Shown: positions 32,153 to 64,000 of the stretch, piece by piece
Layout: every line of letters starts with the position of its first letter
Numbering within the stretch: the stretch's first letter is position 1
Assembly: GCF_013912375.1 (NCBI RefSeq)
Contig: NZ_JACETV010000001.1
Location: 248,001-312,000 of the forward strand
From: Emticicia sp. BO119
GTDB lineage: Bacteria; Bacteroidota; Bacteroidia; Cytophagales; Spirosomataceae
Reading direction: 5' to 3'
Length of the DNA stretch: 64,000 nucleotides
The notes under the pieces: model-generated
What the model was told of the DNA's origin: nothing
Databases searched by the model: none
What the model saw: only the letters and a program-made list of their open reading frames with translations
Made by a program: the position numbers and the translations under genes

Positions 32153-32249
32153 TTGCTTATTTTAGACCAAATGCATCAATTGCCTGATTCTAAAAACAAA
32201 CAAATAAGTAGTATTTTATTGATTATCAGTACATTAGAACCCATTAAGG
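32153..32249 (+). promoter_or_regulatory. CRISPR leader
   Basis: These 97 AT-rich bases lie between cas2 and the first repeat. The far end of the array has the degenerate repeat, so new spacers enter here and the array should be transcribed rightward from here. No clear promoter pair was found. The 12-mer TTGATTATCAGT at 32219-32230 recurs at 41459-41470. Confidence 0.7.
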
Positions 32250-35200
32250 GTAGAAATGAAGACCTTTTCAAGATAGGATTACGACGATTAATTGGTCTAC
32301 CTTTTTCACCTGTGCTTTCGTAGAAATGAAGACCTTTTCAAGATAGGATTACGACATAATTTAATAATGCCATAAGATTAGAAAAATTGTTGTAGAAATG
32401 AAGACCTTTTCAAGATAGGATTACGACTCTCTTCTATCGCCTTAGTCTGGAACTCTCTCCATTGTAGAAATGAAGACCTTTTCAAGATAGGATTACGACA
32501 TAACGAGCGGTTGGATTACCGGAGCAACTACAGGTAGAAATGAAGACCTTTTCAAGATAGGATTACGACTACTTGTCCTGTGTTATGTGTGATTTTTCTG
32601 TACTTGTAGAAATGAAGACCTTTTCAAGATAGGATTACGACGTTCATTGAAGTTATGTGTATCAGATGTCTTAGCGGTAGAAATGAAGACCTTTTCAAGA
32701 TAGGATTACGACAGTTCACGTTCTGTCTCGTTACTTCTGATAATGTAGAAATGAAGACCTTTTCAAGATAGGATTACGACTCTCGACTATACTCGTACAG
32801 AGTAATGGTGCGACGTAGAAATGAAGACCTTTTCAAGATAGGATTACGACGCTTACAATCTTAGGGACGTCCTCCCCCTTATCAAAGTAGAAATGAAGAC
32901 CTTTTCAAGATAGGATTACGACATTAAGTAAATCTTCAACAGTCATTTGAAGTATGTAGAAATGAAGACCTTTTCAAGATAGGATTACGACACTTCTTCA
33001 CGCCCTGTTGCTTTAGGAACGTGGTGTAGAAATGAAGACCTTTTCAAGATAGGATTACGACACTAAGAGTAGTGTAACAATCCAGAGGATTGTTCTCGTA
33101 GAAATGAAGACCTTTTCAAGATAGGATTACGACACTTCTTCACGCCCTGTTGCTTTAGGAACGTGGTGTAGAAATGAAGACCTTTTCAAGATAGGATTAC
33201 GACAGTGGGGCGGTACAAATCGTCCGCGATTTGTCCGGTAGAAATGAAGACCTTTTCAAGATAGGATTACGACACCAGTTGTTCCGTCCTGAAGTCGCGT
33301 TGTAGTTAGGTAGAAATGAAGACCTTTTCAAGATAGGATTACGACTACTGTTTGAGAGAACTGGCGAGATTTTTCTGTGTAGAAATGAAGACCTTTTCAA
33401 GATAGGATTACGACTGTTCTCGCTCGTATACACCGTGTACACGGTGATAGGTAGAAATGAAGACCTTTTCAAGATAGGATTACGACAATTCTTATTGTAA
33501 GAAATACTTACAATACCTATGGTAGAAATGAAGACCTTTTCAAGATAGGATTACGACTCTACAATTTCGTTTTCTTGATGTACATTTTCCTCAATGTAGA
33601 AATGAAGACCTTTTCAAGAAGGATTACGACTCTTCATCATCCTGGATGTTCACATGTAACTTTTCTGTAGAAATGAAGACCTTTTCAAGATAGGATTACG
33701 ACTTTTTCATCAGGCTCAAACCCGCCCAAAAACCCTTGTAGAAATGAAGACCTTTTCAAGATAGGATTACGACACTGAACACCTACGGCTTCAATTGATT
33801 CAGCCAAGTAGAAATGAAGACCTTTTCAAGATAGGATTACGACAACAACATACTTAACCAGGGATTTGAAAATAGTTGTAGAAATGAAGACCTTTTCAAG
33901 ATAGGATTACGACACAAAAATACCGACTTCAAATCAGCGTACTGATTGTAGAAATGAAGACCTTTTCAAGATAGGATTACGACTAAAAGTGCCGCCTGAA
34001 CGCAGGCGATGATTTGAAGTAGAAATGAAGACCTTTTCAAGATAGGATTACGACAGTACGTTCTTTTGTAGTGAAATGAAAATAACAAGTAGAAATGAAG
34101 ACCTTTTCAAGATAGGATTACGACTTAAATAATCTGTTTCTCAGAAGCTCTTTGTGTAGAAATGAAGACCTTTTCAAGATAGGATTACGACACTCGTCCT
34201 CTTCGTTCTGATAGCTCTTAGGCGTAGTAGAAATGAAGACCTTTTCAAGATAGGATTACGACATCTTCGTCGGAAATGTAGGTCTCCGACACTACGTGTA
34301 GAAATGAAGACCTTTTCAAGATAGGATTACGACTCTTCATCATCCTGGATGTTCACATGTAACTTTTCTGTAGAAATGAAGACCTTTTCAAGATAGGATT
34401 ACGACCTCTATATCTGAAGTCTTATAGATCTCTACGACGTAGAAATGAAGACCTTTTCAAGATAGGATTACGACGAATTCAGAACGAACGAATCCGAGAA
34501 TAACGTCCGCAGTAGAAATGAAGACCTTTTCAAGATAGGATTACGACATATACTCAAAAATATCTTCTTCTACTGGTGTCCATGTAGAAATGAAGACCTT
34601 TTCAAGATAGGATTACGACTCTGTGTTGCATATATGGCGTCTTGCCAGTGATTGTTACTGTAGAAATGAAGACCTTTTCAAGATAGGATTACGACGTCTT
34701 GTATTCGGCCAATATATGCTGATGTAACTCGTAGAAATGAAGACCTTTTCAAGATAGGATTACGACAATCTACAATGACGTCTTTGTTTTCGGTTGTATT
34801 GAGTAGAAATGAAGACCTTTTCAAGATAGGATTACGACGTTGGGGTGATCTTATTTTCGCCTCCAAGCGCTGTGTAGAAATGAAGACCTTTTCAAGATAG
34901 GATTACGACCATAGTTTTGGGGCTTGATTCGACAGTTTTTCTTCGTAGAAATGAAGACCTTTTCAAGATAGGATTACGACTTTTAGTTAAATTACTGGTT
35001 GCTCGTAAACCTGACTGTAGAAATGAAGACCTTTTCAAGATAGGATTACGACACCCGGATTAATGGTGACAGATTGAGCAAGTGATGTAGAAATGAAGAC
35101 CTTTTCAAGATAGGATTACGACCGCTCGGTGAGGAAACTATGCTATCGTGTGCAATGTAGAAATGAAGACCTTTTCAAGATAGGATTACGACAATGTTTA

Positions 35201-38200
35201 CAAATTGCCATCATTACTAATGGTACTGTAGAAATGAAGACCTTTTCAAGATAGGATTACGACTGAGGAAGTCAGTTATGGCTGGCAAGAGCCAGGAAGT
35301 AGAAATGAAGACCTTTTCAAGATAGGATTACGACATCTTAGGCACACCCTCACCCTTATCAAAAGAGCGGTAGAAATGAAGACCTTTTCAAGATAGGATT
35401 ACGACTCCCTCGGTGAATACTCGGATAGCTGTGAACACACGGTAGAAATGAAGACCTTTTCAAGATAGGATTACGACAGTGAACACACGCTTAGCGTCGG
35501 TTACACCTAACAGCGTAGAAATGAAGACCTTTTCAAGATAGGATTACGACACTCCGGCACTTGTTTGTTTTAATATTTCTGTAGAAATGAAGACCTTTTC
35601 AAGATAGGATTACGACACTAAGTTTTTGGCTGTTTTCACGTCTTTTTGCGTTGTAGAAATGAAGACCTTTTCAAGATAGGATTACGACAGTCAGATAACT
35701 GAATACCATGCGTAGCCGTCGCTTGTAGAAATGAAGACCTTTTCAAGATAGGATTACGACACTTGTTACTTTTATACTTAAATCTTCCATTTTCTGTAGA
35801 AATGAAGACCTTTTCAAGATAGGATTACGACGTTCCTGACCTGGTTGGCTTCGGATCTACTACCGGGTAGAAATGAAGACCTTTTCAAGATAGGATTACG
35901 ACTTTGCTTCAAAATTTTCGTATGTTTTATCAAACTGTAGAAATGAAGACCTTTTCAAGATAGGATTACGACATTTCCGTATATGTTATTGCCGTCGCCG
36001 TATGGTAGAAATGAAGACCTTTTCAAGATAGGATTACGACTATTCGGGGATATAGCTGGCCACTACCATAGTAAGTAGAATTGAAGACCTTTTCAAGATA
36101 GGATTACGACTTTGGTAAATAAGCTCTGCAATAGACTGGGCTGCAGTGTAGAAATGAAGACCTTTTCAAGATAGGATTACGACAGTATTAGCCAAGCCTC
36201 CTCCGAAGACATGTCTTTGGGTAGAAATGAAGACCTTTTCAAGATAGGATTACGACTAAATAGTCTTCTTGGAGTTGTTCCAAATTCCTGTAGAAATGAA
36301 GACCTTTTCAAGATAGGATTACGACCTTATGCCCGGCTTGCATCGCCATTCGGTGATAGAGTAGAAATGAAGACCTTTTCAAGATAGGATTACGACTTCC
36401 TCTCCCTCCTCTTCACTCGTCTCAACATCATGTAGAAATGAAGACCTTTTCAAGATAGGATTACGACAAGCTGCCATCGACGTAAAAACCAAATTGATTG
36501 GTGTAGAAATGAAGACCTTTTCAAGATAGGATTACGACATCCTCCAGAGCCACCATTTCATTCACTCAACTACGTAGAAATGAAGACCTTTTCAAGATAG
36601 GATTACGACAGAATTAATCCCAATCCTAATAGAGACAATAGGACTGTAGAAATGAAGACCTTTTCAAGATAGGATTACGACACCTAGTGTTGCTGTAATC
36701 GTAAAGGAAAAACCGTAGAAATGAAGACCTTTTCAAGATAGGATTACGACAGTACCCTCCACCAACCCGACAACTGTTGAAAAAATGTAGAAATGAAGAC
36801 CTTTTCAAGATAGGATTACGACCTTTCTGGTTTCACATAAGCGTCTTGCCAATGATGTAGAAATGAAGACCTTTTCAAGATAGGATTACGACACTCAACT
36901 GTAGGGCGTAATGTAAAAATAGAGCAAGTAGAAATGAAGACCTTTTCAAGATAGGATTACGACATAACTTGCAGTTGCTCTGAAATTAATGTTGTCATGT
37001 AGAAATGAAGACCTTTTCAAGATAGGATTACGACATTAAACCCTTTCGGTGCAGGCGGCATGCCCAGGAAATAATGTAGAAATGAAGACCTTTTCAAGAT
37101 AGGATTACGACCTTGCAAAATGAATTCTCCGTGCAGTTCTTTTTCAGTAGAAATGAAGACCTTTTCAAGATAGGATTACGACATCCTCCAGAGCCACCAT
37201 TTCATTCACTCAACTACGTAGAAATGAAGACCTTTTCAAGATAGGATTACGACTGAATAATATCTGGAACAATAGGTTCTTCATAAGGTAGAAATGAAGA
37301 CCTTTTCAAGATAGGATTACGACATCCTCCAGAGCCACCATTTCATTCACTCAACTACGTAGAAATGAAGACCTTTTCAAGATAGGATTACGACTGAATA
37401 ATATCTGGAACAATAGGTTCTTCATAAGGTAGAAATGAAGACCTTTTCAAGATAGGATTACGACTTCCGCATAGATAGCCATGTGATGCTGTGATCGTAG
37501 TAGAAATGAAGACCTTTTCAAGATAGGATTACGACTGTCATTTTTATATTCCCTATCTGCTACGATATGGGTAGAAATGAAGACCTTTTCAAGATAGGAT
37601 TACGACTTTTCGTGATGGTAAGTTCCAATCAGGTTTGGTATGGTAGAAATGAAGACCTTTTCAAGATAGGATTACGACCGTTAGCTATGCCAGAGTCAGG
37701 TTGAGTAGGAGTGTAGAAATGAAGACCTTTTCAAGATAGGATTACGACATTCTTCCTTGTTTATACCTATAGCGTCCATTTCCTGTAGAAATGAAGACCT
37801 TTTCAAGATAGGATTACGACGCTTCCTTTTTAGATGGTGTTGCTATATATAAAGTAGAAATGAAGACCTTTTCAAGATAGGATTACGACACCTTGAAGAC
37901 TTTATCGTCTTTCTTTCCTAAGTAGGTAGAAATGAAGACCTTTTCAAGATAGGATTACGACCTCTTAGAGAATCTGCTTTTTTTATAAAGCAACGTAGAA
38001 ATGAAGACCTTTTCAAGATAGGATTACGACACCATTAGGCAATCTTATCAATTTGCCTTTCGCTGTAGAAATGAAGACCTTTTCAAGATAGGATTACGAC
38101 CCAAAATAACTTAAATACTGAAAATAAAACATTTCACAGTAGAAATGAAGACCTTTTCAAGATAGGATTACGACAAAAAAGTCTAAGTGGCCCAGCTTTT

Positions 38201-39593
38201 TTACCCCTTATGGGTAGAAATGAAGACCTTTTCAAGATAGGATTACGACATTCTCTTCTGCTATTAGTATTTCGCTACCAATGTAGAAATGAAGACCTTT
38301 TCAAGATAGGATTACGACTCCAATTTCTTTCCAGGCATAAATTCGCTCGGTGAGTAGAAATGAAGACCTTTTCAAGATAGGATTACGACAGTCATCGTCA
38401 TCACGCTCAGTGCTACGCTCCCCGTAGAAATGAAGACCTTTTCAAGATTGGATTACGACGCTTCACTATCTTCACGGCCTTCTTCGTATTGTCATAAGGT
38501 AGAAATGAAGACCTTTTCAAGATAGGATTACGACATCTTGTCGATTACTCGCATAAGCTTACGGGGTTAAGAGTAGAAATGAAGACCTTTTCAAGATAGG
38601 ATTACGACGTTTCTTTCGAATGCCTCGTCGATATGTGACTGCAGTAGAAATGAAGACCTTTTCAAGATAGGATTACGACTTTCTCCAACGAACACAATCT
38701 CGGAACCCTCTTTCGGTAGAAATGAAGACCTTTTCAAGATAGGATTACGACATATCTTCAGGCTTTGCAACCCACGCAGCAGCGCCGTAGAAATGAAGAC
38801 CTTTTCAAGATAGGATTACGACACATCTGCAACTTCATTAAGCTTTTTCTGACGGCGTAGAAATGAAGACCTTTTCAAGATAGGATTACGACCATATTTC
38901 TTCGCCTGGGCGAGCGAAAGTATAAAAAGTAGAAATGAAGACCTTTTCAAGATAGGATTACGACTGCTAACTGCTCCAGATCAATCATCTTAGTACGGCA
39001 TAGAAATGAAGACCTTTTCAAGATAGGATTACGACTGGTACAGTGCCTCCAATACTTGGCTCGGGAATTGTAGAAATGAAGACCTTTTCAAGATAGGATT
39101 ACGACGCTGTATAAGGATTTTTGATACTATCCTTAGCAAAGGTAGAAATGAAGACCTTTTCAAGATAGGATTACGACAGAAAAAAGAAATACAGGCAGAA
39201 GAAAAGCAATCGTAGAAATGAAGACCTTTTCAAGATAGGATTACGACTTGGACGAAGTTTGAGAAGTCTGACTCATTTTATTTGTAGAAATGAAGACCTT
39301 TTCAAGATAGGATTACGACTTCCACACCTAAGAAATACTTAAATTCCTCATTTAGTAGAAATGAAGACCTTTTCAAGATAGGATTACGACCCACCGTCCG
39401 CCGCATCGGCGTCTTCGCACAGCGTAGAAATGAAGACCTTTTCAAGAAAGGATTACGACTTCCTCAATACATTTAAAAGCTTTTCTTGCTCGTAGAAATG
39501 AAGACCTTTTCAAGATAGGATTACGACCTTCCATTTTACTTACTAATTGTTCAGCTCTTTCTGTAGAAATGAAGACCTTTTCAAGATAGGATT
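32250..39593 (+). CRISPR. CRISPR array, about 104 repeats of 36 bp
   Basis: The repeat begins GTAGAAATGAAGACC and ends GGATTACGAC (36 bases, weakly structured). I counted about 104 copies and 103 spacers of roughly 31-40 bases. The last copy (39563-39593) keeps 31 bases and then diverges, marking the old end. Repeat variants are near 33596 (one base lost), 36075 (A to T), 38424, 39000 and 39424. Some spacers occur twice or three times (for example 32992/33134, 33631/34334, 36539/37183/37324). The last eight bases, ATTACGAC, would be the crRNA 5' tag if processed like other type III repeats. Confidence 0.98.
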
Positions 39594-39632
39594 TTTATTA
39601 TTAGTAGAATTATTTATTATCTAAATTACTTA

Positions 39633-41460: not shown

Positions 41461-41517
41461 GATTATCAGTGCTCCCGAAGCTGGGAACCAACAAGTAATC
41501 ATAGAAGACTGATAATC
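41461..41517. repeat. 10-bp inverted repeat around a small hairpin
   Basis: GATTATCAGT (41461-41470) faces its exact complement ACTGATAATC (41508-41517). Between them GCTCCC and GGGAAC form a second small hairpin. It sits next to the IS remnant and at the left edge of the putative element. It could be an attachment-site relic or part of a terminator region. Confidence 0.5.
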
Positions 41518-41917
41518 AATGTGTTACTGACGTGAAATGCGCTTGCATTTCTAAGGATGGGTTGCCATCTGGGACAATTGGATAAAAAAAATTGTGTCCT
41601 GATGGTCGTAAATACAACCCACCCTTAATTTTTCCCAAGTCTAGTTTGATGCCATTTAAAGCCAATAATTCCACAGCTTTAAAATACTTCTCTTTCCATT
41701 CAACATTCTCTTTTTCAGACCCTCCTAAAAGTTCAGGAATTGATGTGTCTAAATACTCGCTAATTTTCTCCAGAGTGTTAAGATTTATAGACTTTCTGTC
41801 AAACATATTATGATAAGTTTGTCTGGATAAATCTAAATCTTCAAACATTTTCATCTTTAAAACCCCCTTTTGGCGAATTTTCTTCTCTATCCGCTCCTTA
41901 AGTGCTGTGTAATCCAT
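41516..41917 (-). CDS. XRE-type helix-turn-helix repressor
   Basis: This 133-residue protein has an N-terminal helix-turn-helix (about 15-65: KMKMFEDLDLSRQTYHNMFD, then LNTLEKISEYLDTSIPELL). A short helix and a small C-terminal domain follow. It is the only leftward gene at the start of a long rightward gene series. That is the usual arrangement of a prophage or element repressor. The rightward promoter lies within 60 bases of its start. Confidence 0.75.
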   Translation of the reverse strand: MDYTALKERIEKKIRQKGVLKMKMFEDLDLSRQTYHNMFDRKSINLNTLEKISEYLDTSIPELLGGSEKENVEWKEKYFKAVELLALNGIKLDLGKIKGGLYLRPSGHNFFYPIVPDGNPSLEMQAHFTSVTH

Positions 41918-42086: not shown

Positions 42087-42506
42087 ATGGAATTGATAAT
42101 AAATACCGGTGAATCCAACAATGTAGTGGAAGAAGTTTCAATTGGCTATAATTCTGCTACAATGAAAAGACTTTTTATCACATTGAGACTTCCGGTTAAA
42201 CAATTTCATAGTGATATAGAAATACGTAATCTAATATTTCTTCCAATCATCAATGCTGCCTTATTGAGGCATGGAAAAGGGGTTAATTCTTTTGAGTGCA
42301 AAATAAAATCAGAGAAAGAAAATTTGATTTGTGAAGCCAGATTCTATGGCAAGGTAGATATTGCTAGAGTAGAGGAAGACTGGAATAGTATTTTAGGTGC
42401 CTACGGATATACCCAGGCTGCGAAATATCAGGATGAAGCATTAAGTCGACTCTTTTTAAAAAGAGAGCAATTTTTTCCTGCATCTACTTTTGTTGCAGAA
42501 TATTGA
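42087..42506 (+). CDS. hypothetical protein
   Basis: This 139-residue soluble protein is the first gene after the regulated promoter, so it is probably an early gene of the element. No family was recognised. It looks like an alpha/beta domain with no Cys or metal-binding pattern. Confidence 0.5.
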   Translation: MELIINTGESNNVVEEVSIGYNSATMKRLFITLRLPVKQFHSDIEIRNLIFLPIINAALLRHGKGVNSFECKIKSEKENLICEARFYGKVDIARVEEDWNSILGAYGYTQAAKYQDEALSRLFLKREQFFPASTFVAEY

Positions 42507-48863: not shown

Positions 48864-49130
48864 ATGCCACTTGACACCATTTATGTTGGAAGGCCAGTCA
48901 AATATTTCAGCAATCCTTACAAAATAGGAACCTATTCACCTTGGTTAAAAAGGAACTGCGAAAACATTGAAGATGTAGTGGAGAGTTTCAAACAATTAGT
49001 TGATGCTAGTCCGCATCTCCAGAGACTAATCCGAATGAAATTGAAAGGTAAAAATCTTGCCTGTTGGTGTAGCTTAGATAAAGCCTGCCACGCAGATTAC
49101 TTATTGAAAATTGCAAATCAAGAGATGTGA
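48864..49130 (+). CDS. DUF4326 protein
   Basis: This 88-residue protein has the DUF4326 pattern: IYVGRPVKYFSNPYKIG at the start, then LKGKNLACWCSLDKACHADYLLKIAN. The function is unknown; the family is common in phages and mobile elements. Its stop overlaps the methylase start as TGATG. Confidence 0.8.
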   Translation: MPLDTIYVGRPVKYFSNPYKIGTYSPWLKRNCENIEDVVESFKQLVDASPHLQRLIRMKLKGKNLACWCSLDKACHADYLLKIANQEM

Positions 49131-49849
49131 TGAAAGAATTGGAAAAACCATTTCCTGAATATTTCGGTGGTAAAGGTGGTGATGGAGTTTATCAGTTCAT
49201 CATTAACCATATCAGACCACATGAAATATACATTGAAGGCTGTGCCGGCAATGTCACCATTGCCAGAAAGAAAAAGAAGGCTTCGCTCAAAAATATTATC
49301 AATGATATTAATCCGGAAGTAGCAGCTAGATTGACTGAGGTAATGGAAGGTTTTCAGGTTGAAAATGTAAGTGTGCTGAATTTGCTAAAGCTCTATCTGA
49401 CGTATTCAAAAATCTGGAGTTACAAAATTGTTATCTACCTTGACCCACCTTATTTGCATAGCACTCGTAAGTCCAGAACAAGGTATCCATTTGAGATGTC
49501 TGATGAGGAGCATGTGCAAATGCTGGATTTATGTCTCCAATTTGACCCTGATTATGTAGACATTATTATATCGACCTATCCGAATGAATTGTATGCTAAT
49601 AAACTAAAAGGTTGGGCAATGGAGGAATATGAATCAAGAACCAGGAGCGGAAAAGTGGCAAAAGAAAACCTGTATATGAATTTTCATGAGATAAAAGAAT
49701 TGCACGAATATACCTTTTATGGTAAAACCCATCGACAGCGGCAATTAATTAAACGTAAGGTTAACCGGTGGAAAACAAACTTTAAAAAACTCTCTCGATT
49801 AGAACGTGATATGATGTTTAAAGCCTTGAAATCTGTCCATGGAAACTAA
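49130..49849 (+). CDS. Dam-type (D12) adenine-N6 DNA methylase
   Basis: From ATG 49130 this is a 239-residue methyltransferase. FGGKGGDGVY and EGCAGNVT (here Cys replaces the usual Phe of EPFAG) form the AdoMet site. YLDPPYLH is the catalytic motif. A GTG at 49127 is less likely because TGATG is used at other junctions. It is an orphan, with no restriction enzyme beside it, so it may protect the element from host enzymes. Confidence 0.82.
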   Translation: MKELEKPFPEYFGGKGGDGVYQFIINHIRPHEIYIEGCAGNVTIARKKKKASLKNIINDINPEVAARLTEVMEGFQVENVSVLNLLKLYLTYSKIWSYKIVIYLDPPYLHSTRKSRTRYPFEMSDEEHVQMLDLCLQFDPDYVDIIISTYPNELYANKLKGWAMEEYESRTRSGKVAKENLYMNFHEIKELHEYTFYGKTHRQRQLIKRKVNRWKTNFKKLSRLERDMMFKALKSVHGN

Positions 49850-53232: not shown

Positions 53233-56151
53233 TTAGTCAGAATTTAGCACCTCAACATGGAAATCATTACAGAATTCTTCATAGGCCTTCTCAATTTGCT
53301 CTTTTGTAGTTTCAGTGTAGTATTTATTATTATATACCCAATCGATTAATTCATTATTGATAACCAATTTCAAAGCCACACTAGAAGAAAGATTTTCTTC
53401 TCTAATGTATGGAGAAAGCATTTTAGGATATGGAATATAAATCCCATTGTAAACTTCTTCATTTGAAACATATGGAATTAAAAAATTATCTTTTAATCTC
53501 AGATGTTTATATTTATTTAAACAAGGGATTATCTGTCTTGCATAAACACTGTAAGTATCTTTATGCTTTCTCAATAATTTCTTTACAAATTCTTCTTCAA
53601 TTGGACAATCATCTATTAAATTTTTTGATAAAATTAAAGTATCACTTCTTTTTCCTTTCCCAATTGGAATTATTTTAAATGATTTAAAGTAGTCTTTTGT
53701 AATAAATAATAAAAAATTGTGAACTGAAGATGAAGGTGATGAAATAATACTCAATTCTTTTCCATCTAACTTTATTTTATAATCCTCATCCGCATCAAAA
53801 TATACGGTTATTATATCACAATCATTTAATAGGGTAATCATAGTTTTTTTCTCACTAGTCCCATTATTTTCCACTTCAAACTCATAGGATTGCCATTGTT
53901 GAAAATTTTCTAATTTTATTCCTTCTATCAAATTCTTACTAAGGAAGAATTTATAAACGTAACTATAATAGTTAATAAACATGCTTCCCAACACTTTATC
54001 ATCATCATTAATAAAAATCGAATTAAAGTTTTCTAAATTGGTTAAAACCCTAAATGAGGCATTCATGAAATCTTTAGATAATTCGCTAATATATTCATCT
54101 CTAATATGATTTCGATTTAATGTTAAAACTTTTGAGGCATTATCTTTATGAATATTTATTTCAAAATTTAAGAACTTTAATCCCCATTTAGTTTCTACCT
54201 CTTGATTTTTATAAAACATAGTAAAGGTATCATTAATAACTCCATTATTAAGAGGGAAAATATTTAATTCTAAAGAAGATTCAGAATCGAAAAAATTAAA
54301 CTTTTTATTTTGTGTATATGTAGATTTGTATTCATTATTAATCTTCAGAGATATGGGTATATAGCTTTTTCGAGCGAATGCTAGAATTTCATCATATATT
54401 TTTCCGTATTCTATATCCAAAGATTTGTTTGCAAATGGGTCATAATTATTAATAATCCTACGTGCATATCGTTGTTGCTTATTATCTATTCTCCATTTTT
54501 CAGGAATGGCCTTATTGCAAATGGTGAATTGAATTTTAGAGCCAGGCTTATCTGAATGAGTAGTTTTTTGTTTTTGAATTAAAATTGCACCATCTTTTTT
54601 TGAATGTGGGCTATTTAATTGAATTTTTTGTAACTCCTCAGTAAAATAACTTTTGGAATCAATATTAACAACATCCGTTATCATAAAAATGCTTTGGAAA
54701 CCGATGCCAAAATAGCCTGATGGTTTCATCCAAACAGGCATATTAGTAATTACTTCTGTTTTTATTTGGTTTCTACCGGAACTTCCTGTATTCATTAGAA
54801 ATATTAAATCATCTTTTGAAATACCTATACCTTTATCTTTTATTTTTATCTCCCATTTTTGCCATTCATTTTCTATGCCTTCATCAACCATCTCAATTTC
54901 AATAGTATACATTTCTGAAAATTTCAAAAATTCACTACAATTGGGTGATTTGAAATTGTCTCCATTATTGTGATCTAACCAAATTTTTATCAATGTTGCA
55001 TCGACAGCATTTTGAAGAATTTCTCGAATACACTGAAAAGCACTATCATATATACCTGAACCTTGTAGTAATTCTAAAGCTTTATCTGAGTCAACTTTAA
55101 ATTTAGGTTTGTTTTTACCATCGATAAAATCATAATCCTTTAAATTAACTATTAAATTTCCAAGTGTTGGTAATAATCCAAATTCTTTAGTTGGAATAAT
55201 TTTATTCCAGTTAATGGTTTGTTCAGTTATTTCTGTATTTAAGTAATTGAACCAATGTTGGGTGATATTGGCTACATCATAATTATTGCAGCTAGCAGTA
55301 ATTTCAATTTTTTCTTGGTCTACTCTAAAATATTCAATTGATAGGTGTTTATCTTTATGATTTAAAGAATCTGTAGGGGCTTTGGTTAATGTTCTAAGCA
55401 TTACCTCAGAGAAGCGGTTATTATCCAAATCTAATAAATCACCAATCCTTAACATACACGCAATAAATCTAGGATGTGCATCCTCAACATCTATTCCAAC
55501 TTCACAAAAAGGAAGATTCATCACATCAGTAAAATCCTTCGTATGGCACGAACAAATTTTCCCTAATACTTTTTTTATTCGTATTGGAATTACTCCGGTC
55601 GGAGAATCTAACGAAATTTTTTCATACGGATTATTAACTATATTTTCACTGCGCTCTCCATGTCTCCATCTAAAAAATTCCGCAAGAATAAATCTCATTC
55701 CATCATTAACTTCTAAACTAAATTCTTTATTGGTATAGCAAATTTTTTTATCAACGATTTCAAATTTATTTGCAAACTCATGTAAATTATCTTTTTTATT
55801 CTCAATTAAACTTTTGAAAAATGTAATAAATTCTACTGATTTAAGAGCCTCAATCAAATCTTCACTTGGAACTACCATACCTATATCATGTATGTAAGCA
55901 GCTTCAAGCATTAACCAAATATCTATTGCAGAAAGTTTAGCTATTTTCTCTTTCCCTAAAACTCTTACTATATTATTTAATATAGTTTCTGAATGTGATG
56001 AGTCATGTAAGCTAAAATGAGGAAACAACGCAGACACAGCATTTAAGGCGGTTGGTATTACTTTTTTATCATAACTCCATTTTGCGTACAAAATGTCACT
56101 TGGTGTTCCTTTTGTTTTTTCTAATAATAATTGCTCAAGATATTGTACCAT
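53233..56151 (-). CDS. HD-domain plus GHKL (Hsp90-like) ATPase protein
   Basis: This 972-residue protein begins with an HD phosphohydrolase-like domain (His49-Asp50 and His53 in SLHDSSHSE; His88-Asp89 in AAYIHDIG). The middle is a GHKL/Hsp90-type ATPase. EILQNAVDA (about 385-395) is the N-box, DKGIGIS (about 442) the G1 box, and GYFGIGFQSIF (about 480) the G2 box. The last 400 residues are unassigned. Such HD plus Hsp90-like proteins occur in bacterial conflict systems. It stands alone on the minus strand, divergent from an anchored partner. Confidence 0.7.
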   Translation of the reverse strand: MVQYLEQLLLEKTKGTPSDILYAKWSYDKKVIPTALNAVSALFPHFSLHDSSHSETILNNIVRVLGKEKIAKLSAIDIWLMLEAAYIHDIGMVVPSEDLIEALKSVEFITFFKSLIENKKDNLHEFANKFEIVDKKICYTNKEFSLEVNDGMRFILAEFFRWRHGERSENIVNNPYEKISLDSPTGVIPIRIKKVLGKICSCHTKDFTDVMNLPFCEVGIDVEDAHPRFIACMLRIGDLLDLDNNRFSEVMLRTLTKAPTDSLNHKDKHLSIEYFRVDQEKIEITASCNNYDVANITQHWFNYLNTEITEQTINWNKIIPTKEFGLLPTLGNLIVNLKDYDFIDGKNKPKFKVDSDKALELLQGSGIYDSAFQCIREILQNAVDATLIKIWLDHNNGDNFKSPNCSEFLKFSEMYTIEIEMVDEGIENEWQKWEIKIKDKGIGISKDDLIFLMNTGSSGRNQIKTEVITNMPVWMKPSGYFGIGFQSIFMITDVVNIDSKSYFTEELQKIQLNSPHSKKDGAILIQKQKTTHSDKPGSKIQFTICNKAIPEKWRIDNKQQRYARRIINNYDPFANKSLDIEYGKIYDEILAFARKSYIPISLKINNEYKSTYTQNKKFNFFDSESSLELNIFPLNNGVINDTFTMFYKNQEVETKWGLKFLNFEINIHKDNASKVLTLNRNHIRDEYISELSKDFMNASFRVLTNLENFNSIFINDDDKVLGSMFINYYSYVYKFFLSKNLIEGIKLENFQQWQSYEFEVENNGTSEKKTMITLLNDCDIITVYFDADEDYKIKLDGKELSIISSPSSSVHNFLLFITKDYFKSFKIIPIGKGKRSDTLILSKNLIDDCPIEEEFVKKLLRKHKDTYSVYARQIIPCLNKYKHLRLKDNFLIPYVSNEEVYNGIYIPYPKMLSPYIREENLSSSVALKLVINNELIDWVYNNKYYTETTKEQIEKAYEEFCNDFHVEVLNSD

Positions 56152-57753: not shown

Positions 57754-58398
57754 ATGTTGCACACCGACGTAAATTCTACACCGCAGTCAGAAAAGGCGTT
57801 CCCGTATATGGATAGAAGTGTATATGCCCATGAACCATTCAATAAACACCTGAATACCAAAATTCAGGGTAGTTTATTTGAGCATATACAAGGCAATTTA
57901 GGTTTCCTGGGAACGGTTTCCATTCAAGATTTCGTAAGAAACCTGCTCAGTGACTTTTTTGAAGGAAACCTGGTTTACACCACCCTCAATATTGCGGAAA
58001 CCACAGGAAACCTCAAGTTTCCACAGGTTTCCACCGTCGGAAACCTAACGGAAATCTCAGGTTTCCCAGTAATGGAAACCGAAGGAAACCTAAATGAGAT
58101 AGGTTTCCTGGAACAAAAACTTCTAGCACTGTATCAAGAAAATCCCAATCAAAGAACCCTTATTGGCATTGAAGAATATGAACTGTTGAGTAATGAGTAT
58201 AATGTCTTATTACAACAACACGAAGCTATGTTAGGGGAGGCCGCAGGTGCAGCACAAGTAGTCGTACTTAGTCTGGAGGAACTACTAGCGATAAGCTTAA
58301 CGGATGAAAAAATTGAGGATATTCTGGAAATGGCTAATCAATACGAAAATGCTTTTGACCTAATCAAAGAAAAATATGGCGCAAGGGAACTTGAATAA
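57754..58398 (+). CDS. hypothetical protein with GNL repeats
   Basis: This 214-residue protein has irregular Gly-Asn-Leu repeats between about 45 and 115 (QGNLGF, EGNLVY, TGNLKF, VGNLTE, EGNLNE). They are encoded by the GGAAACC/GGTTTCC cluster at 57901-58108. The C-terminal 100 residues are helical. No family was recognised. The protein repeats may be a by-product of DNA sites kept for another purpose. Confidence 0.5.
   Translation: MLHTDVNSTPQSEKAFPYMDRSVYAHEPFNKHLNTKIQGSLFEHIQGNLGFLGTVSIQDFVRNLLSDFFEGNLVYTTLNIAETTGNLKFPQVSTVGNLTEISGFPVMETEGNLNEIGFLEQKLLALYQENPNQRTLIGIEEYELLSNEYNVLLQQHEAMLGEAAGAAQVVVLSLEELLAISLTDEKIEDILEMANQYENAFDLIKEKYGARELE
57901..58108. repeat. cluster of 11 exact GGAAACC/GGTTTCC sites
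   Basis: GGAAACC starts at 57964, 57996, 58006, 58039, 58074 and 58084. GGTTTCC starts at 57901, 57915, 58026, 58060 and 58102. Near matches occur at 57937, 57972, 58016 and 58050. Eleven exact copies of one 7-mer (both strands) within 208 bases is far above chance. Spacings are irregular and both orientations occur. A binding site for an initiator, partition or packaging protein is likely. Confidence 0.8.
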
Positions 58399-58852
58399 AA
58401 CATTTCTTATTGTCGCTGAGGTTTCGCCTGAAGGGAGAATCGCTAAAGTAATTGAAAAGGAAGAAACAACAATCCAGGAATTAGTGAATTACCATCAGCG
58501 AAAAGAGTACCTGGAGAAGCAAGTGCTAGAGGTTACCAGAAACTATCATTTGCTAATGGCCAGATATGAAAATATCAGTCAAAAAAATGAGGCAGCTTTA
58601 GCGGCATTAACCGGTCTACTCACGGCATATGGCGTATATGACCCTCAGAAACATACGCTCAACCTGGAGCCGATAGTTAAACCCTATGTTTTGAAGACCT
58701 TACAGGATATTCAGAATCAGGAAGCAAGATTAGGTTATTTAGCAGGGAAATGGGAGGATTTTAAGTTGAAACATAAACTCAAATTAAGTAACCTTTTATT
58801 GAGTGCTGCACAATGGTTTGGTGGATTTTTTAAAAAGAAAGATAAATCATGA
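58376..58852 (+). CDS. helical hypothetical protein
   Basis: This 158-residue protein has a long coiled coil (about 25-75) and a basic end (FFKKKDKS). It overlaps the previous gene by 23 bases and the next by 4 (ATGA). No family was recognised. The tight overlap suggests a structural or assembly gene run. Confidence 0.5.
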   Translation: MAQGNLNKTFLIVAEVSPEGRIAKVIEKEETTIQELVNYHQRKEYLEKQVLEVTRNYHLLMARYENISQKNEAALAALTGLLTAYGVYDPQKHTLNLEPIVKPYVLKTLQDIQNQEARLGYLAGKWEDFKLKHKLKLSNLLLSAAQWFGGFFKKKDKS

Positions 58853-59784
58853 AGATTTTTGATAACCTTAAAAATAGAATTTCTGGTAAACTGGAACAAA
58901 GCGCAGAGAATCTGGTAGGACAGGTGATTGATAAAGGTGCAGAAAAAGCAGCTGATTTGATAGGGCAAAGTTTCAGTAACCCTATTCCTAATCCGATTCA
59001 GATTCCGGAAGGAGCCAAACAGGATTACATGAATCAAGTATTAGGGAGTTCACCTAATTCTGTTTCATCAGTTCAGTCAATGCCCCAGCAGCCACCGCCA
59101 CCTGTTCAACAACAAATCCCTTTTCAGGAATACTCACAGCCTCAACCTTACCCGTTTACACAGGAACAGTACCCTTATGGATACCCTCCGCAGATGAATC
59201 CCTATCCGGTATATCCACAGATGGGTTATCAACCTAACCCATATTCCTACCCAATGCCACAAGTGCAACTAACGATGGATACACCTGTTCCCAAGTTAGA
59301 GGCGAGTAGAGTAGAGAAGATGGCCACCTATGAAACCTGGTTCTTTTTTAAAGTGATGAAGGTAGCCAAAGATACCATCCGGTTTGTGGCTATTAAGTAT
59401 TTCTCCTGGAGAATTGATGAGGATATACAGGTAATTCAGCAATATGAGCAATCCCTCGATGCTGACCTGGAAAAAGCCTATAAAAAAGCCAAATATAATC
59501 TTCAGAAACTGGAGGAAATCAAGACCATCAAAGATGATAAAGGGCAGGATGACCCTATTTTCAAGGAATTTGTCTATGATGCCATTCTGGATAACCTGAT
59601 GAAGAAAAACGAATTAGGGCAGTTGAAAATACCATCTATCTGGGAGATAGGTTTAAGAGAAATCGGTTTTTTTACCTACGAAGTATTCAGCCCGAATAAA
59701 AGTATCGAAATGTTTTTTGAATCGATACAATCAGATATTGGAAAAGCAATTTTGAACAATGGCCAAACGAATAGTACAGTCTGA
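58849..59784 (+). CDS. Pro/Gln/Tyr-rich virion-like protein
   Basis: This 311-residue protein starts with an amphipathic helix (about 1-42). A Pro/Gln/Tyr-rich disordered stretch follows (about 70-145) with many PYP and YPQ units. The C-terminal 150 residues are helical. No family was recognised. The next gene starts within its last 26 bases. Similar Pro/Gln/Tyr-rich stretches appear in the protein encoded at 60592-61308. Confidence 0.5.
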   Translation: MKIFDNLKNRISGKLEQSAENLVGQVIDKGAEKAADLIGQSFSNPIPNPIQIPEGAKQDYMNQVLGSSPNSVSSVQSMPQQPPPPVQQQIPFQEYSQPQPYPFTQEQYPYGYPPQMNPYPVYPQMGYQPNPYSYPMPQVQLTMDTPVPKLEASRVEKMATYETWFFFKVMKVAKDTIRFVAIKYFSWRIDEDIQVIQQYEQSLDADLEKAYKKAKYNLQKLEEIKTIKDDKGQDDPIFKEFVYDAILDNLMKKNELGQLKIPSIWEIGLREIGFFTYEVFSPNKSIEMFFESIQSDIGKAILNNGQTNSTV

Positions 59785-60595
59785 AAATATTGCCATACCA
59801 GCTAAGTATGTAAATTCTTATCCTATTAAATCCACACAACAACCTTCTATAAACACTATCAAATTATCCCAGATGGGAGAAAGATTAGGAGCTAATTGGG
59901 GGGTATATGGAGAAATGAAGACAGGAAAAAGCTATACAGTAAAGTTATTGTCCCTGTCTTATTTCCGGAAAGGCAAAAGGGTGTTGATTTTGGACCATAA
60001 TTACAATGACCTGACTTACAATGATTTTTGGGGTATTACACCCATCATCATCAATCAGGATAAGTTTATGGAAATTGAATGGAATAGAATGCCTGACAAT
60101 ATTGTCGTTCGAATTCAGCCTAACAGTGATTTGGAATCTTTTGATTTTGACAAGTTCTTTTTAAAAGCGAAACGGATTACTGATAGTGTATTAGTCCTGG
60201 ATGATATGATGGATGTTTTCGGAAGTAAAGCTACTTCTAATGTGATGAACTTCCCATCTACAGTGATGAATAACAGAAATGAGGCTTTCTATCAGTTTCA
60301 TACATTCACTCAGGCACAGCCTTTTTTACGGCAAAGATTACAGAACCTGGTTCTGAAAAATTTGCCTAAAGACGTGGAAATACCAAAAGATTTTCCAACC
60401 TCGATTAGTTACATCAAATGGTCAATTGAGGAAATTAATGCCACAAATGAACATCTACCCTTTGGCAAAAGATTCGAGTGGCGAATCATACATATGGATG
60501 ATGGATTAGTAACCAGACCTGTCAAATTAGATGGAAAAACAGAGGAAATCGTTTCATATCCTCTCTCTCAATACTTTAAAAACAGAATGAAATGA
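59759..60595 (+). CDS. FtsK/HerA-like packaging-type ATPase
   Basis: This 278-residue P-loop ATPase has Walker A GEMKTGKS (51-58), Walker B LVLDDMMD (145-152) and a sensor-like FTQAQP (about 183-188). The size, single domain and motif spacing suit the FtsK/HerA group, which includes the packaging ATPases of tailless dsDNA viruses and Zot-like proteins. No membrane helix is visible. Its setting among membrane and disordered proteins favours packaging or assembly over conjugation. I could not run a family search. Confidence 0.65.
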   Translation: MAKRIVQSENIAIPAKYVNSYPIKSTQQPSINTIKLSQMGERLGANWGVYGEMKTGKSYTVKLLSLSYFRKGKRVLILDHNYNDLTYNDFWGITPIIINQDKFMEIEWNRMPDNIVVRIQPNSDLESFDFDKFFLKAKRITDSVLVLDDMMDVFGSKATSNVMNFPSTVMNNRNEAFYQFHTFTQAQPFLRQRLQNLVLKNLPKDVEIPKDFPTSISYIKWSIEEINATNEHLPFGKRFEWRIIHMDDGLVTRPVKLDGKTEEIVSYPLSQYFKNRMK

Positions 60596-61308
60596 ACCAA
60601 CAATTTATTCCAAGACCCCCCTATTACGGGCAGCCACAACAGCCCATGCAAGGCCAACCTATATCTATGTATCAGCAGCCTGTGCAGCCTATCCCTCGAA
60701 GTTATCCTGGCTATCCCTATCAGGAGCCAATGGAGCCAACTGAGAACAAAAGTTGGAAGTACATACTTTTAGGCTTGCTTTTTACCATAATCGCCGGCAT
60801 CACCTTCTGGTTTTTTAAGAAGCGTCCAGGTATGACTTTTAACCTGAACAAATCGAAAAAATTTGTAGATGAGTCTCTACTAATAGCCAAAGACGAGGAA
60901 ATTGCCAGTCTGAAACGGATGCTAGAAAAACAAAAGCCTATCAATGGTCATAAATTCGATGATATAGGGGAAAAGAAGGATTTAAGCAAATTAGATGACG
61001 ACCCTGAACAGGCACATAAAAATTTCAAGAAAAACGTCGGCTTACCAGGAACTATATCAACTGATAAAAAACCAGAGCAAACCATTGATAGCTTTATTGA
61101 CTGGATAATTGAACAGCGAGGTTTCTCTTTTGCTAAGGAAAATCAATATTCCAATGCCGAAATTGCCTGTAAGGTTACCATCGAATCTCAGGGCATACTT
61201 ATCAAAATTGGTGATTTGAATCCGGTTTTCAGACCAACTACTGAAATAGAAACAATAGATTTCAGAGACAAATTCGATGAGTTAATTTCCTCTGCATCAG
61301 TGGATTAA
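60592..61308 (+). CDS. membrane-anchored Pro/Gln-rich protein
   Basis: This 238-residue protein starts with a Pro/Gln/Tyr-rich stretch (about 1-50). Then comes one membrane helix (about 57-74: YILLGLLFTIIAGITFWFF), a charged linker and an alpha/beta end domain (about 165-238). Its start overlaps the ATPase stop (ATGA), which suggests a functional link. No family was recognised. Confidence 0.5.
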   Translation: MNQQFIPRPPYYGQPQQPMQGQPISMYQQPVQPIPRSYPGYPYQEPMEPTENKSWKYILLGLLFTIIAGITFWFFKKRPGMTFNLNKSKKFVDESLLIAKDEEIASLKRMLEKQKPINGHKFDDIGEKKDLSKLDDDPEQAHKNFKKNVGLPGTISTDKKPEQTIDSFIDWIIEQRGFSFAKENQYSNAEIACKVTIESQGILIKIGDLNPVFRPTTEIETIDFRDKFDELISSASVD

Positions 61309-61317
61309 AGGTGTGTC

Positions 61318-61357
61318 AAGATTATGCTTGCGACATTAATGTCGCAAGCATAATCTT
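61318..61357. repeat. perfect 40-bp palindrome
   Basis: The left arm AAGATTATGCTTGCGACATT (61318-61337) is directly followed by its exact reverse complement (61338-61357), with no loop. It lies 9 bases after the stop of the previous gene. No T run follows, so it is not a plain terminator. Confidence 0.95.
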
Positions 61358-61567
61358 ACCGGTAGATAACCCCATATTGAGCGTTACTTCCGGATAATTA
61401 ATCTTATTGTAAATAAGCATTGCTTTTAAATATCCAAAAGTTTCGTCAAAACTATTACCATGGGAAGTAACGCCAGAAATAGCTGCAATCCAGATATTAC
61501 ATTCAGGACCATAACGTTTTATGTGGCGTTGCCACCAGGTAAATGAAAACTTTTAAATAGAATCTGC

Positions 61568-61747
61568 ATGGGAAAAGCTAGGAATTCGTGGCAAAAATGG
61601 TTAGCCCACCAAGAAAAACGTAGAGTCAGGAGGAGGAAAAGACAATACATTCGAAAACAAAAAGCGGAGTGGGAAGCAGAAGTAAGGCTTAAAAGCAGAA
61701 CCATCATTCGGAGAATCATGGATTTTATCAGAGGAAAATATTTTTGA
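61568..61747 (+). CDS. very basic 59-residue protein
   Basis: The frame starts MGKARNSWQKWLAHQEKR and goes on with RRRKRQ, with over a third of residues Lys or Arg. It has one helix-rich domain and no family. Such proteins in viral gene runs usually bind DNA or RNA. The ATG lies about 30 bases after an AACG...CGTT hairpin (61513-61530). Confidence 0.5.
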   Translation: MGKARNSWQKWLAHQEKRRVRRRKRQYIRKQKAEWEAEVRLKSRTIIRRIMDFIRGKYF

Positions 61748-61774
61748 TGCTAGTATAAAACAGGTTTATGAAAG

Positions 61775-62356
61775 ATGAAAAAGCGTGATAAAAATCTTCT
61801 TATAGCTGGAGCTGTGGGCATTGTATTAGGAGGTGTAGGTATGAGTCTGGCCGGTACTAACGATATTGTTTCTCCCTTAAAAATCCGTGTGGATGGCGAA
61901 GGCGATGGTAATTTCGGTACTTCCAGATTGCCTCCTTACAACAAACATTATGGCTTGGATTTAGAAGTAAAAACAGGTCAGAGAGTATATGCTCCTTTTT
62001 CCGGAACTATTATTCTCATTCCAAAGGCGCTCAAAGATAAAGATGGTTACCAAGGTGTGCGAATCATGGCTGACAATGGTTTGAAAATAGATGTTTTGTA
62101 TATCAAACCTGCTGTCAAAGCAAATACCAGAATTAAAAAAGGTGATTTAATCGGGTATGCTCAGGATATAACCAAAGCCTACTCAGACACTATGAAAAAC
62201 CATATCCACATCGAGCATTTTGACCCGAAAACGCTCACGTTTCTCAACCCGACTTCTTATTATTTTGGCAGCTCAGTAGTGGGCTCGATTTCTGAATTCT
62301 CCTTTCAGGTAAGTCCTGAATTTTATGCCAATTACGTAGCCCATCAAGGTGAATAA
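61775..62356 (+). CDS. M23-family peptidase-like protein with N-terminal membrane helix
   Basis: This 193-residue protein has one membrane helix (about 8-27). The M23/LytM domain carries HxxxD (His58, Asp62 in HYGLDLEV) and HxH (His143, His145 in HIHIEHF), so zinc binding and endopeptidase activity are likely. In a viral gene run it would open peptidoglycan during entry or release. The next gene overlaps by 8 bases. Confidence 0.78.
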   Translation: MKKRDKNLLIAGAVGIVLGGVGMSLAGTNDIVSPLKIRVDGEGDGNFGTSRLPPYNKHYGLDLEVKTGQRVYAPFSGTIILIPKALKDKDGYQGVRIMADNGLKIDVLYIKPAVKANTRIKKGDLIGYAQDITKAYSDTMKNHIHIEHFDPKTLTFLNPTSYYFGSSVVGSISEFSFQVSPEFYANYVAHQGE

Positions 62357-62606
62357 AAAACAATATGAAATATTTGACTATGCAAATAAATGCTTTCGGA
62401 TGTGTACCATAAAGGACATTCGTGATTCCTGTTTTGAAGGAATCGACCAGAGAACCTTTAAGGATTTGTTGTCAGTAGACGATTATAAGGCACTAGAAAA
62501 CTTAGGATTTGAGAGTTTTCTAGGTTTGCAAAAAAGAGAAGTAGTAGAATATCTGGTAGAAAAAGTGGGTAAAATTACTAAATATATTCCCCTAAAGGCT
62601 GTATAA
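62349..62606 (+). CDS. small hypothetical protein
   Basis: This 85-residue protein starts with GTG inside the end of the peptidase gene. It is helical (FKDLLSVDDYKALENLGFE) and may be a small DNA-binding or adaptor protein. Its stop lies within a 10-bp tandem repeat. Confidence 0.45.
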   Translation: MNKKQYEIFDYANKCFRMCTIKDIRDSCFEGIDQRTFKDLLSVDDYKALENLGFESFLGLQKREVVEYLVEKVGKITKYIPLKAV

Positions 62607-62660
62607 GCCTGCAAGAGCCTGCACAAGGCTACATCAGGCTGCAAGAGACTGCATGAAGCG
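62601..62660. repeat. 10-bp tandem repeat, six units
   Basis: Successive decamers read GTATAAGCCT, GCAAGAGCCT, GCACAAGGCT, ACATCAGGCT, GCAAGAGACT and GCATGAAGCG. The exact 10-base period equals about one helical turn. It lies between two genes of the run. Confidence 0.7.
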
Positions 62661-62725
62661 GGTAAGGTGGTAAAAATTGAAGATAAGTTTGGTCGAAAAA
62701 TCGCACAAACAAAACATTTTCAATA

Positions 62726-63376
62726 ATGGCAAAGAAAGTCTTAGTATCAGCCCAGATTTTGATTGCAAACTATAAAGCTGCAGTCAATGATTCAAGTGGA
62801 ATAGAAGCAGGATACATCATTACTCCTCAGACGGATAGTGTATCAGGATTAAAAATTTATGCCCGCATCCGTCCAAACGTGAATCGGGTTGACCTATTGG
62901 CAAAAGACAGTTTAGACCCTCGTGGGATTACTGAAACGGTAGCCAAAGACAAGTTCATGGCCAATCTGGCTGCCATCAAAACCTTCTTTGCGTTGACAAA
63001 TGTAGGAGAAACAGCCGCAGCGTTGGATATGCCGCAAATTAAATTGGATAGTGGTGGCGTTTTCTGGGATACCACAGTAACCAGCTTCCCTCAACCAACC
63101 GTTTTCAGTACTAACGTAGTTGAAGGTACAACCACAGACCCGTCAGATACGCATAAATATCTGAACTATTTCACCCCGTCAATTGGTGATTTCTCTGCCA
63201 AACCTGTTACCACACCAGCAGCCGCAACTGCTTCAGATGAAGGTTTCTTTGCTAAATATAAAAGACCGATTTTGTGGGGCGTAGGTGTTGTAGTAGTGGT
63301 AGTCGGATTTGTAGCCATTGACCCATTCAAATGGTTCAAAAAGAAGTCTAAAAATCTGCTCAAAAGAAAAAGATAA
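62726..63376 (+). CDS. virion-like protein with C-terminal membrane helix
   Basis: This 216-residue protein has a soluble beta-rich part (about 1-165). One membrane helix follows (about 178-196: ILWGVGVVVVVVGFVAI), then a strongly basic tail (WFKKKSKNLLKRKR). The plan, soluble domain outside and basic tail inside, fits a phage membrane or spike-anchor protein. No family was recognised. A strong terminator follows. Confidence 0.5.
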   Translation: MAKKVLVSAQILIANYKAAVNDSSGIEAGYIITPQTDSVSGLKIYARIRPNVNRVDLLAKDSLDPRGITETVAKDKFMANLAAIKTFFALTNVGETAAALDMPQIKLDSGGVFWDTTVTSFPQPTVFSTNVVEGTTTDPSDTHKYLNYFTPSIGDFSAKPVTTPAAATASDEGFFAKYKRPILWGVGVVVVVVGFVAIDPFKWFKKKSKNLLKRKR

Positions 63377-63401
63377 GAGTCACTTAACTCATAGGTCACA
63401 T

Positions 63402-63437
63402 AAAAAGGCGTAGTCATTCACTTGCTACGCCTTTTTT
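63402..63437 (+). terminator. strong intrinsic terminator
   Basis: AAAAAGGCGTAG pairs with CTACGCCTTTTT around an 11-base loop and runs into T residues. It lies 25 bases after the previous stop codon. Confidence 0.88.
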
Positions 63438-63453
63438 AATAAAATCTCCAATC

Positions 63454-64000
63454 ATGGCACAGTCAATTCTTGAATACATTTCCAAGCAACAACAGCCTCA
63501 AACCGATGTACTTATCGGAAAAGTGGCTATTGCGGCTAAAGGTATTGCAACTGTGTATGAGTCAGTCAATAAACAAACCGGGGCAGATTCAGGACGGAAA
63601 GTGATGACCTATCTGGAGGGTTCTTCGATTGGCATTATTCAGAAAGTGGGATATATCGGACAGAGGATTTTTGCTTCTATTACCCTGTATTCTTATTTCA
63701 AACATCCCTATCTGGTAGGTAATCCGACTGTAAGGCAGGTATTAATTGGTATTGAAAAACTGGCATTTGAAGGCTCAAATCTAAAAGGCAATCAATCAGA
63801 ATTATATGCCACCAGTACCATCAATATCCGTTCCACTCCCAGTGTGAATGCTACTAAAGTAGAATCCTATGCCAAGAACCAATTGGTAGGCTATACCGAT
63901 GGTTTGCTAATCACCAGTACGGATACCATCAGCACTGCTAAATGGTATAAAATTATAACCGTAAGTGGGAAAACCGGCTTTGTTCGTAGCGACATAGTCA
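63454..64000 (+). CDS. protein with SH3b-like end (partial)
   Basis: The frame from ATG 63454 is open to the window end (182 codons). The last 75 residues look like a bacterial SH3 domain (NIRSTPSVNATKV, then GKTGFVRSDIV), which usually binds peptidoglycan. The first 110 residues contain conserved Gly and hydrophobic stretches (GSSIGIIQKVGYIGQRIF). It is probably another virion or cell-wall-binding protein. Confidence 0.6.
   Translation, partial: MAQSILEYISKQQQPQTDVLIGKVAIAAKGIATVYESVNKQTGADSGRKVMTYLEGSSIGIIQKVGYIGQRIFASITLYSYFKHPYLVGNPTVRQVLIGIEKLAFEGSNLKGNQSELYATSTINIRSTPSVNATKVESYAKNQLVGYTDGLLITSTDTISTAKWYKIITVSGKTGFVRSDIV

Follow-up and report, generated by a model that had tools for sequence, protein, structure and literature searches.

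What kind of mobile element couples an FtsK/HerA-type ATPase to peptidoglycan-cleaving enzymes and a series of membrane-anchored proteins, with no recognised tail genes? The question is raised by a 64,000-nucleotide stretch of the 6.57-Mb genome of Emticicia sp. BO119 (hereafter the window: contig NZ_JACETV010000001.1, called C1 below, positions 248001–312000, forward strand), in which a preliminary description had noted a virus-like gene run at window positions 57754–64000 and proposed an undescribed tail-less phage. This run belongs to an integrated element, here named E1, whose size of 61,750 bp (C1 289470–351219) follows from the exact 16-bp repeats that set both of its ends; it begins at window position 41470 and continues for about 39 kb beyond the window end at 64000. 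Two tRNA-integrated elements of this genome, E1 and a second one, E2, share a phage-like module in which no tail genes are recognised; their ATPase belongs to a wide family that in a sister clade is tied to a candidate capsid protein. On balance, E1 is probably a provirus, that of a temperate phage which has no tail and depends on a membrane.

Two tRNA-integrated elements share a phage-like module

The right-hand copy of the E1 repeat lies outside the window and forms the 3′ end of a tRNA-Asn gene (C1 351205–351279), which is adjoined by a gene for a tyrosine integrase (C1 349787–351010; Pfam Phage_int_SAM_5, 1.3e-7). E2 (C1 834610–871347; 36,738 bp) sits beside a tRNA-Thr gene, has its own exact 16-bp repeat and encodes an integrase 43% identical to that of E1. 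The joined flanks of E2 match the congeneric genomes G001 (query 359–900, 89%) and G008 (357–634, 87%) unbroken across the junction at 401, and these two therefore carry the empty E2 site, a call that depends on 42–44 bases of the left flank; in the other congeners, the matches fall mainly on the tRNA and the right side.

The open reading frames (ORFs) first noted at 57754–64000 are present as claimed (Table 1), and the run goes on along the plus strand to C1 327247. Its tight packing holds over this greater length: among 30 chosen plus-strand ORFs (C1 305754–327247), 21 of the 29 gaps are overlaps or at most 20 nt. Most of the block that runs from the gene for a protein of 214 amino acids (aa) to that for one of 113 aa is common to E1 and E2, and this recurrence of much of the set puts the run beyond chance. 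Apart from the pairs in Table 1, identities are 49% for the ATPase, 54% for a 155-aa protein (phrog_1128), 56% for a 169-aa protein with an N-terminal helix, 58% for a 185-aa transglycosylase (phrog_873, 6e-36), 60% for a 269-aa protein and 75% for a 703-aa protein. The M23 peptidase of the preliminary description is borne out; its SH3b protein retains a weak SH3 match (1.3e-4, below the Pfam cut-off), and its tiny basic protein corresponds to a 59-aa ORF that is uncertain as a gene. These last two and a 301-aa SLT protein lack a counterpart in the E2 ORF set (blastp, 1e-4).

Many proteins of the block are membrane-anchored, as had been observed for its first part. By a simple hydropathy test, ORFs ending in a membrane helix and a basic tail number 9 of 31 in the E1 block, 7 of 27 in E2, and 6 of 26 and 10 of 28 in the related elements G015a and G045, as against 1 of 35 flanking ORFs of at least 100 aa near E1, a set chosen differently from the block sets. 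A pectate-lyase spike is found in E2 and a 1041-aa GDSL protein in E1, and the spike-like proteins begin with N-termini that by eye resemble signal peptides. A 207-aa endolysin-like protein (phrog_181, 2e-33) is encoded after two small membrane proteins, as would be expected of a lysis cassette in which one of the latter may be a holin; a Pfam census of 112 E1/E2 proteins shows a lysozyme domain (2e-28) in a single member.

The absence of terminase and portal genes, asserted at the outset, was examined with two Pfam families, Terminase_6N and Phage_portal, neither of which matches anywhere on C1, E1 and E2 included. Tailed prophages of the same genome, likewise phage genes in the same host, serve as a control and differ in this respect, with Terminase_6N matching on both C22 and C24 and Phage_portal on C22. 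Among the wider lineage, 29 IMG/VR records, which may be fragments, match neither family. The relaxase family PF03432 has no match in the whole genome (one family, for which the control rang in 1 of 14), in agreement with the preliminary description; AAA_10 has a single sub-cut-off match, on C12 and not on C1, and no conjugation family appears among the 25 families listed of the 32 matched in the census.

The ATPase family and its candidate capsid protein

The E1 ATPase by itself matches Pfam DUF87 weakly (E = 0.019). A mixed profile of 19 ATPases, 17 of them from outside the window's clade (clade A), finds as its best PDB match B204, the packaging NTPase of Sulfolobus turreted icosahedral virus (STIV), with E = 9e-4 for the whole sequence and 0.014 for the aligned stretch 8–164; the alignment takes in the Walker A motif and an ‘NRH...Q’ stretch, that is, most of the ATPase length. 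The clade-A profile in turn finds sister-clade ATPases outside the model, in two Fibrella elements, at 8e-12 and 1.9e-11. Because the clade-A profile reaches the sister ATPases and the mixed profile reaches B204, the E1 ATPase may be assigned a role in packaging DNA. The packaging-type label first given to it is thus plausible by way of B204 and of the pairing with a capsid candidate in the sister clade, and weak for the E1 protein taken alone.

Homologues of the ATPase occur in 4 of 98 near genomes, 13 of 390 genomes of the order and 18 of 395 of the class, the genome itself being counted each time and the weakest matches being doubtful. The family is sporadic in Bacteroidia and was not found in any of 10 congeners; Fibrella aquatilis and F. 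forsythiae, of the window's own family, carry sister-clade elements. A third, weak ATPase match (G000:C12:867843–868388), with 10 stops, is possibly a decayed relic or due to chance.

Some relatives carry, downstream of the ATPase, a 220–298-aa protein mostly without a predicted helix, which by position, size and conservation is a candidate capsid protein. With one such protein as the only query, an IMG/VR search returned 38 loci. The ATPase is encoded at 37 of them, all but L154, where the contig stops about 0.5 kb from the candidate. Another scan returned 46 loci, many on contigs that the first had already found. Across the pooled loci, the candidate is present at 87 of the 111 that carry the ATPase, a linkage overstated by the inclusion of duplicates and of loci chosen by the candidate itself. 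The IMG/VR contigs of the lineage reach 102 kb. Three of 25 candidate members weakly match the PHROG label ‘major head protein’ (best 0.0017), and a sequence-profile search gave no PDB match. In some sister-clade contigs, there is also a second, shorter paralogue (L104:8339–8920, L160:6775–7428 and L222:605–1267; 30–39% identical to the first row), which might serve as a minor capsid or vertex protein.

In a tree of 37 ATPases, E1 and E2 group with G045 and L059 (100%) and more weakly (65–89%) with L049, G015a, G015b, G046 and L047. The candidate was not seen at any of these loci, of which L047 ends soon after the ATPase, and the remaining 28 sequences include every one whose locus has it; the tree is midpoint-rooted, the support label of its deepest split is either 68 or 100, and some loci are incomplete. 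A protein of 167 aa from G046 was taken up by an early iterated profile of the candidate (2.2e-35 after inclusion) and not by a larger profile; it is a possible diverged clade-A copy.

For E1 itself, the first candidate for the main structural or shell protein is the 216-aa protein. Its family was found in 2 of 222 host-family genomes, the second with only a weak match to the last 39 residues, and its profile has no convincing PDB sequence match (best E = 0.016). A 208-aa Fibrella protein was rejected as a homologue, the alignment covering mainly residues 166–198, a membrane segment. A broader proposal may be framed: an undescribed family- or order-level Bacteroidota lineage of large tail-less viruses (proviruses of 36–62 kb, IMG/VR contigs to 102 kb) with its own FtsK/HerA-type packaging ATPase, in which the E1/E2 particle would be built from a novel membrane-anchored 216-aa capsid protein unlike any solved capsid. 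We advance it tentatively and consider it doubtful as a whole, its odds being lowered by the restriction of the 216-aa family to this genome (E1 and E2).

Objections and alternative explanations

Several results weigh against a tail-less, membrane-dependent phage. No capsid protein was recognised in E1 or E2, and E1 beyond 64000, proposed as the place to look for a double-jelly-roll capsid gene, yielded none that could be recognised; three profile or locus comparisons failed to find the sister-clade candidate in elements of clade A. In G046, only 2 of 25 ORFs are anchored. The six-sequence clade-A profile does not reach B204, giving short P-loop matches only, and in the mixed search against the PDB, ClpB came second (0.0042), with HerA and VirB4 lower, all confined to the P-loop region. 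Searched by itself, the E1 ATPase has a VirB4-like P-loop as its best match (0.0023, residues 39–80), so that the question of whether it groups with conjugation proteins is not cleanly settled in favour of packaging; it also weakly matches phrog_2666, labelled terminase large subunit (0.0042), as do sister-clade ATPases more strongly (up to 4.7e-6, the Fibrella copy). Tail, head or neck labels belong to PHROGs that some E1/E2 proteins match, seemingly by way of shared enzyme or spike domains. The labels tape measure, head and tail injection transglycosylase, found among the 25 listed of 87 families, trace to the transglycosylase in single-protein scans. Both elements are known from genome sequence alone, in integrated form, and tblastn with the E1 ATPase, the 216-aa and 269-aa proteins and the Fibrella capsid candidate found no relative in 50,697 phage records.

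Other searches and candidates gave as little. The ‘neck protein’ match (phrog_19519) falls on the 1041-aa GDSL protein and is not read as a neck, and phrog_2, tried as a putative terminase family, rang in 13 of 14 control genomes and gave way to the two Pfam families named above. Sister-clade proteins and the E2 Rep found nothing in the phage records by tblastn, or weak tailed-phage matches (E = 0.3–0.4); scans of viral contigs with the 216-aa protein, the E1/E2 ATPase and the Fibrella capsid candidate were fruitless, as was a genome-contig scan with alignment A3. A full-text literature search, largely without subscription journals, yielded no paper recognised as describing this lineage; PMC12324425 treats a different element, of 4.6 kb and marine.

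The lack of a recognised capsid gene invites two other explanations. The element might be a virus without an icosahedral shell, assembled at the envelope and either extruded like an inovirus, with the ATPase as pI/Zot, or vesicle-like as in pleolipoviruses, with anchored spikes. The Rep of E2 is of the G2P type (Pfam REP_ORF2-G2P, 1e-8), no capsid candidate was found in clade A, many block proteins are anchored, and the spike-like proteins have the N-termini described above, all of which would suit such a virus. Yet no Zot family is among the Pfam matches of five family ATPases (no separate Zot profile was run), the lysis-type enzymes fit lytic exit better, and the sister clade has a capsid candidate that mostly lacks a membrane helix, so that we regard this explanation as unlikely, if a serious contender. 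Alternatively, E1 could be a satellite dependent on a helper, or a decaying provirus that has lost its capsid gene. Besides the failure to find a capsid gene, this would accommodate the E1 cargo, mostly on the other strand (C1 327.4–337.4k), and the fact that the Rep profile finds in E1 only a 139-aa ORF (which has no Pfam family and no HxH motif discernible by eye). Against this, the ORFs of the module are open, and they are conserved in two elements that integrated separately, several of them in other genomes too; decay or dependence appears improbable.

That E1 is a conjugative or other DNA-transfer element with a virus-like membrane apparatus would agree with its integrase and cargo and with the weak matches of the ATPase P-loop to VirB4- and HerA-type proteins. 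The relaxase and AAA_10 results given above speak against it, as do the endolysin and spike genes and the relatives in IMG/VR, and we consider it very improbable. A plasmid form was also entertained, a Spirosoma plasmid having a Rep relative, and dropped, no plasmid record matching the E1 ATPase. The plasmid in question, pTS of Spirosoma taeanense (L226; 28.4 kb), encodes a 30% relative of the E2 Rep, which is thus common to a plasmid.

Relation to known tail-less phages

The preliminary description had likened the gene set to membrane-containing tail-less viruses of the PRD1, PM2 and FLiP kind. As a tail-less, phage-like way of working the likeness is supported; membership of those groups is not, with no capsid gene recognised in E1 and no significant link to FLiP. 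With the STIV/PRD1 lineage, an alignment to B204 is obtained from the mixed family profile and not from that of the window's own clade, and no PRD1-type capsid was found.

With FLiP and PhiCjT23, the elements have in common their Bacteroidota hosts, and in FLiP small membrane-helix proteins adjoin a transglycosylase, as in E1/E2. The FLiP group is reported with an M13-like Rep, which may be set beside the G2P-type Rep of E2, a double-jelly-roll capsid, genomes of up to 17 kb and no packaging ATPase (PMC5894146), where E1/E2 have an ATPase proposed for that role; PhiCjT23 is reported as temperate, with 7,642 nt, and related prophages as lying at dif sites (PMC9719478), unlike the integrase and tRNA sites of E1/E2. 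The FLiP proteins have no significant match in E1/E2 beyond a transglycosylase, and the FLiP major capsid protein profile matches only itself among the proteins compared (hhalign probability at most 15% with the families tested). The 169-aa membrane protein first matched at E = 0.0023, and with the helix cut scored 3.1 bits against shuffled decoys of up to 10.8; the FLiP link was set aside because it was largely carried by transmembrane segments. Iterated profiles that included membrane helices drifted widely (254 matches) and were not used for kinship.

A parallel may also be drawn with Inoviridae, whose ATPase resembles the FtsK/HerA type and which share the G2P-type Rep with E2; E1/E2 differ in the lack of a Zot match, the large genome and several lytic enzymes.

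A possible life cycle and its implications

If E1 is a provirus of the tail-less kind preferred here, it would insert itself at the 3′ end of a tRNA gene through site-specific recombination, as the repeats and integrase indicate (an empty site is at hand for E2 only), and a repressor would keep it silent. On induction, the DNA would be copied through a HUH-type Rep in E2 and some relatives, and in E1 perhaps by its own DnaE-type polymerase. To judge by the family, the C-terminally anchored proteins (window 57754 to C1 327247) would line a membrane that joins the particle, and the small ATPase would drive DNA into it; E1 would thereby make tail-less particles. Gene content suggests that the M23 and transglycosylase enzymes may open peptidoglycan on entry, that the spike-like proteins may bind or digest surface sugars, and that the endolysin with the neighbouring small membrane proteins may lyse the cell.

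Such a large temperate tail-less lineage with a packaging ATPase would supply a missing piece in how membrane-containing viruses evolved. The tail-less Bacteroidota phages compared here are small, at 9.2 kb for FLiP (L144) and a reported 7.6 kb for PhiCjT23 (PMC9719478), as against 36.7 kb for E2 and 61.75 kb for E1. The proposed lineage would also add a class of prophage missed by searches keyed on terminase or tail genes, and cultured hosts exist for particle isolation in the two named Fibrella strains with sister-clade elements.

Other features of the elements and the window

Table 1. Features of E1 within the window (positions in window coordinates)
Feature	Position	Strand	Relatives or basis
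attL of E1, 16-bp direct repeat	41470..41485	no strand	exact second copy at C1 351204–351219
Helix-turn-helix (HTH) repressor-like regulator	41516..41917	-	Pfam HTH_26 2e-5; phrog_8 3e-10; 45% to E2 counterpart
139-aa Rep-related ORF	42087..42506	+	sole E1 match in iterated Rep family profile, 1.9e-43
DNA methylase-like gene	49127..49849	+	relatives in E2, G015a, G015b
214-aa protein, first module gene	57754..58398	+	relative in E2 only
158-aa protein	58376..58852	+	relatives upstream of ATPase in other elements
311-aa Pro/Gln-rich protein	58849..59784	+	relatives just upstream of ATPase in other elements
FtsK/HerA-type P-loop ATPase, proposed genome-packaging ATPase	59759..60595	+	family profiles, tree
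238-aa Pro/Gln-rich protein, one membrane helix	60592..61308	+	relative in E2
59-aa very basic ORF, uncertain gene	61568..61747	+	ORF list
M23 peptidase, N-terminal helix	61775..62356	+	Pfam 3e-10; 57% to E2
85-aa protein	62349..62606	+	relative in E2
216-aa protein, C-terminal membrane helix and basic tail	62726..63376	+	55% to E2
255-aa SH3b protein, C-terminal membrane helix	63454..64000 (ends C1 312221)	+	SH3 domain weak

E2 holds a diversity-generating retroelement (L006:5210–6918, C1 840210–841918), which comprises a reverse transcriptase (RVT_1, 2e-19), a template-like repeat and two variable repeats, and which sits within a putative tail-less provirus. In the closest repeat pair, 9 of 9 substitutions fall on template adenines, and in the second pair most do. 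The E2 copy of the methylase-like gene matches MethyltransfD12 at 3e-4, below the Pfam cut-off.

Outside E1, the window contains a locus of clustered regularly interspaced short palindromic repeats (CRISPR; 20122–39598) with 103 repeats of 36 nt and, ahead of a Cas1-like ORF, one that resembles a reverse transcriptase, both named by eye. Targeting of E1, E2 or their relatives was considered and rejected: the best match of its 101 spacers (97 distinct) has E = 0.004, shuffled controls giving 2e-4 to 0.017.

Within E1, a minus-strand ORF of 972 aa (window 53233–56151) represents defence-like cargo, to which an HSP90-type ATPase domain and an HD-CE domain (one census member each) probably belong. 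Further cargo (L005:8676–11690; L005:14489 to about L008:400) includes the DnaE-type polymerase (one member matches phrog_405 at 7e-198). It also comprises a transglutaminase-like/methylase protein, relatives of which occur in G046 and L049, and a protein of 1417 aa that looks like a helicase by eye and for which G046 has a relative. Separate from this last is a 1340-aa protein of L049, relatives of which lie near the ATPase in L232–L237.

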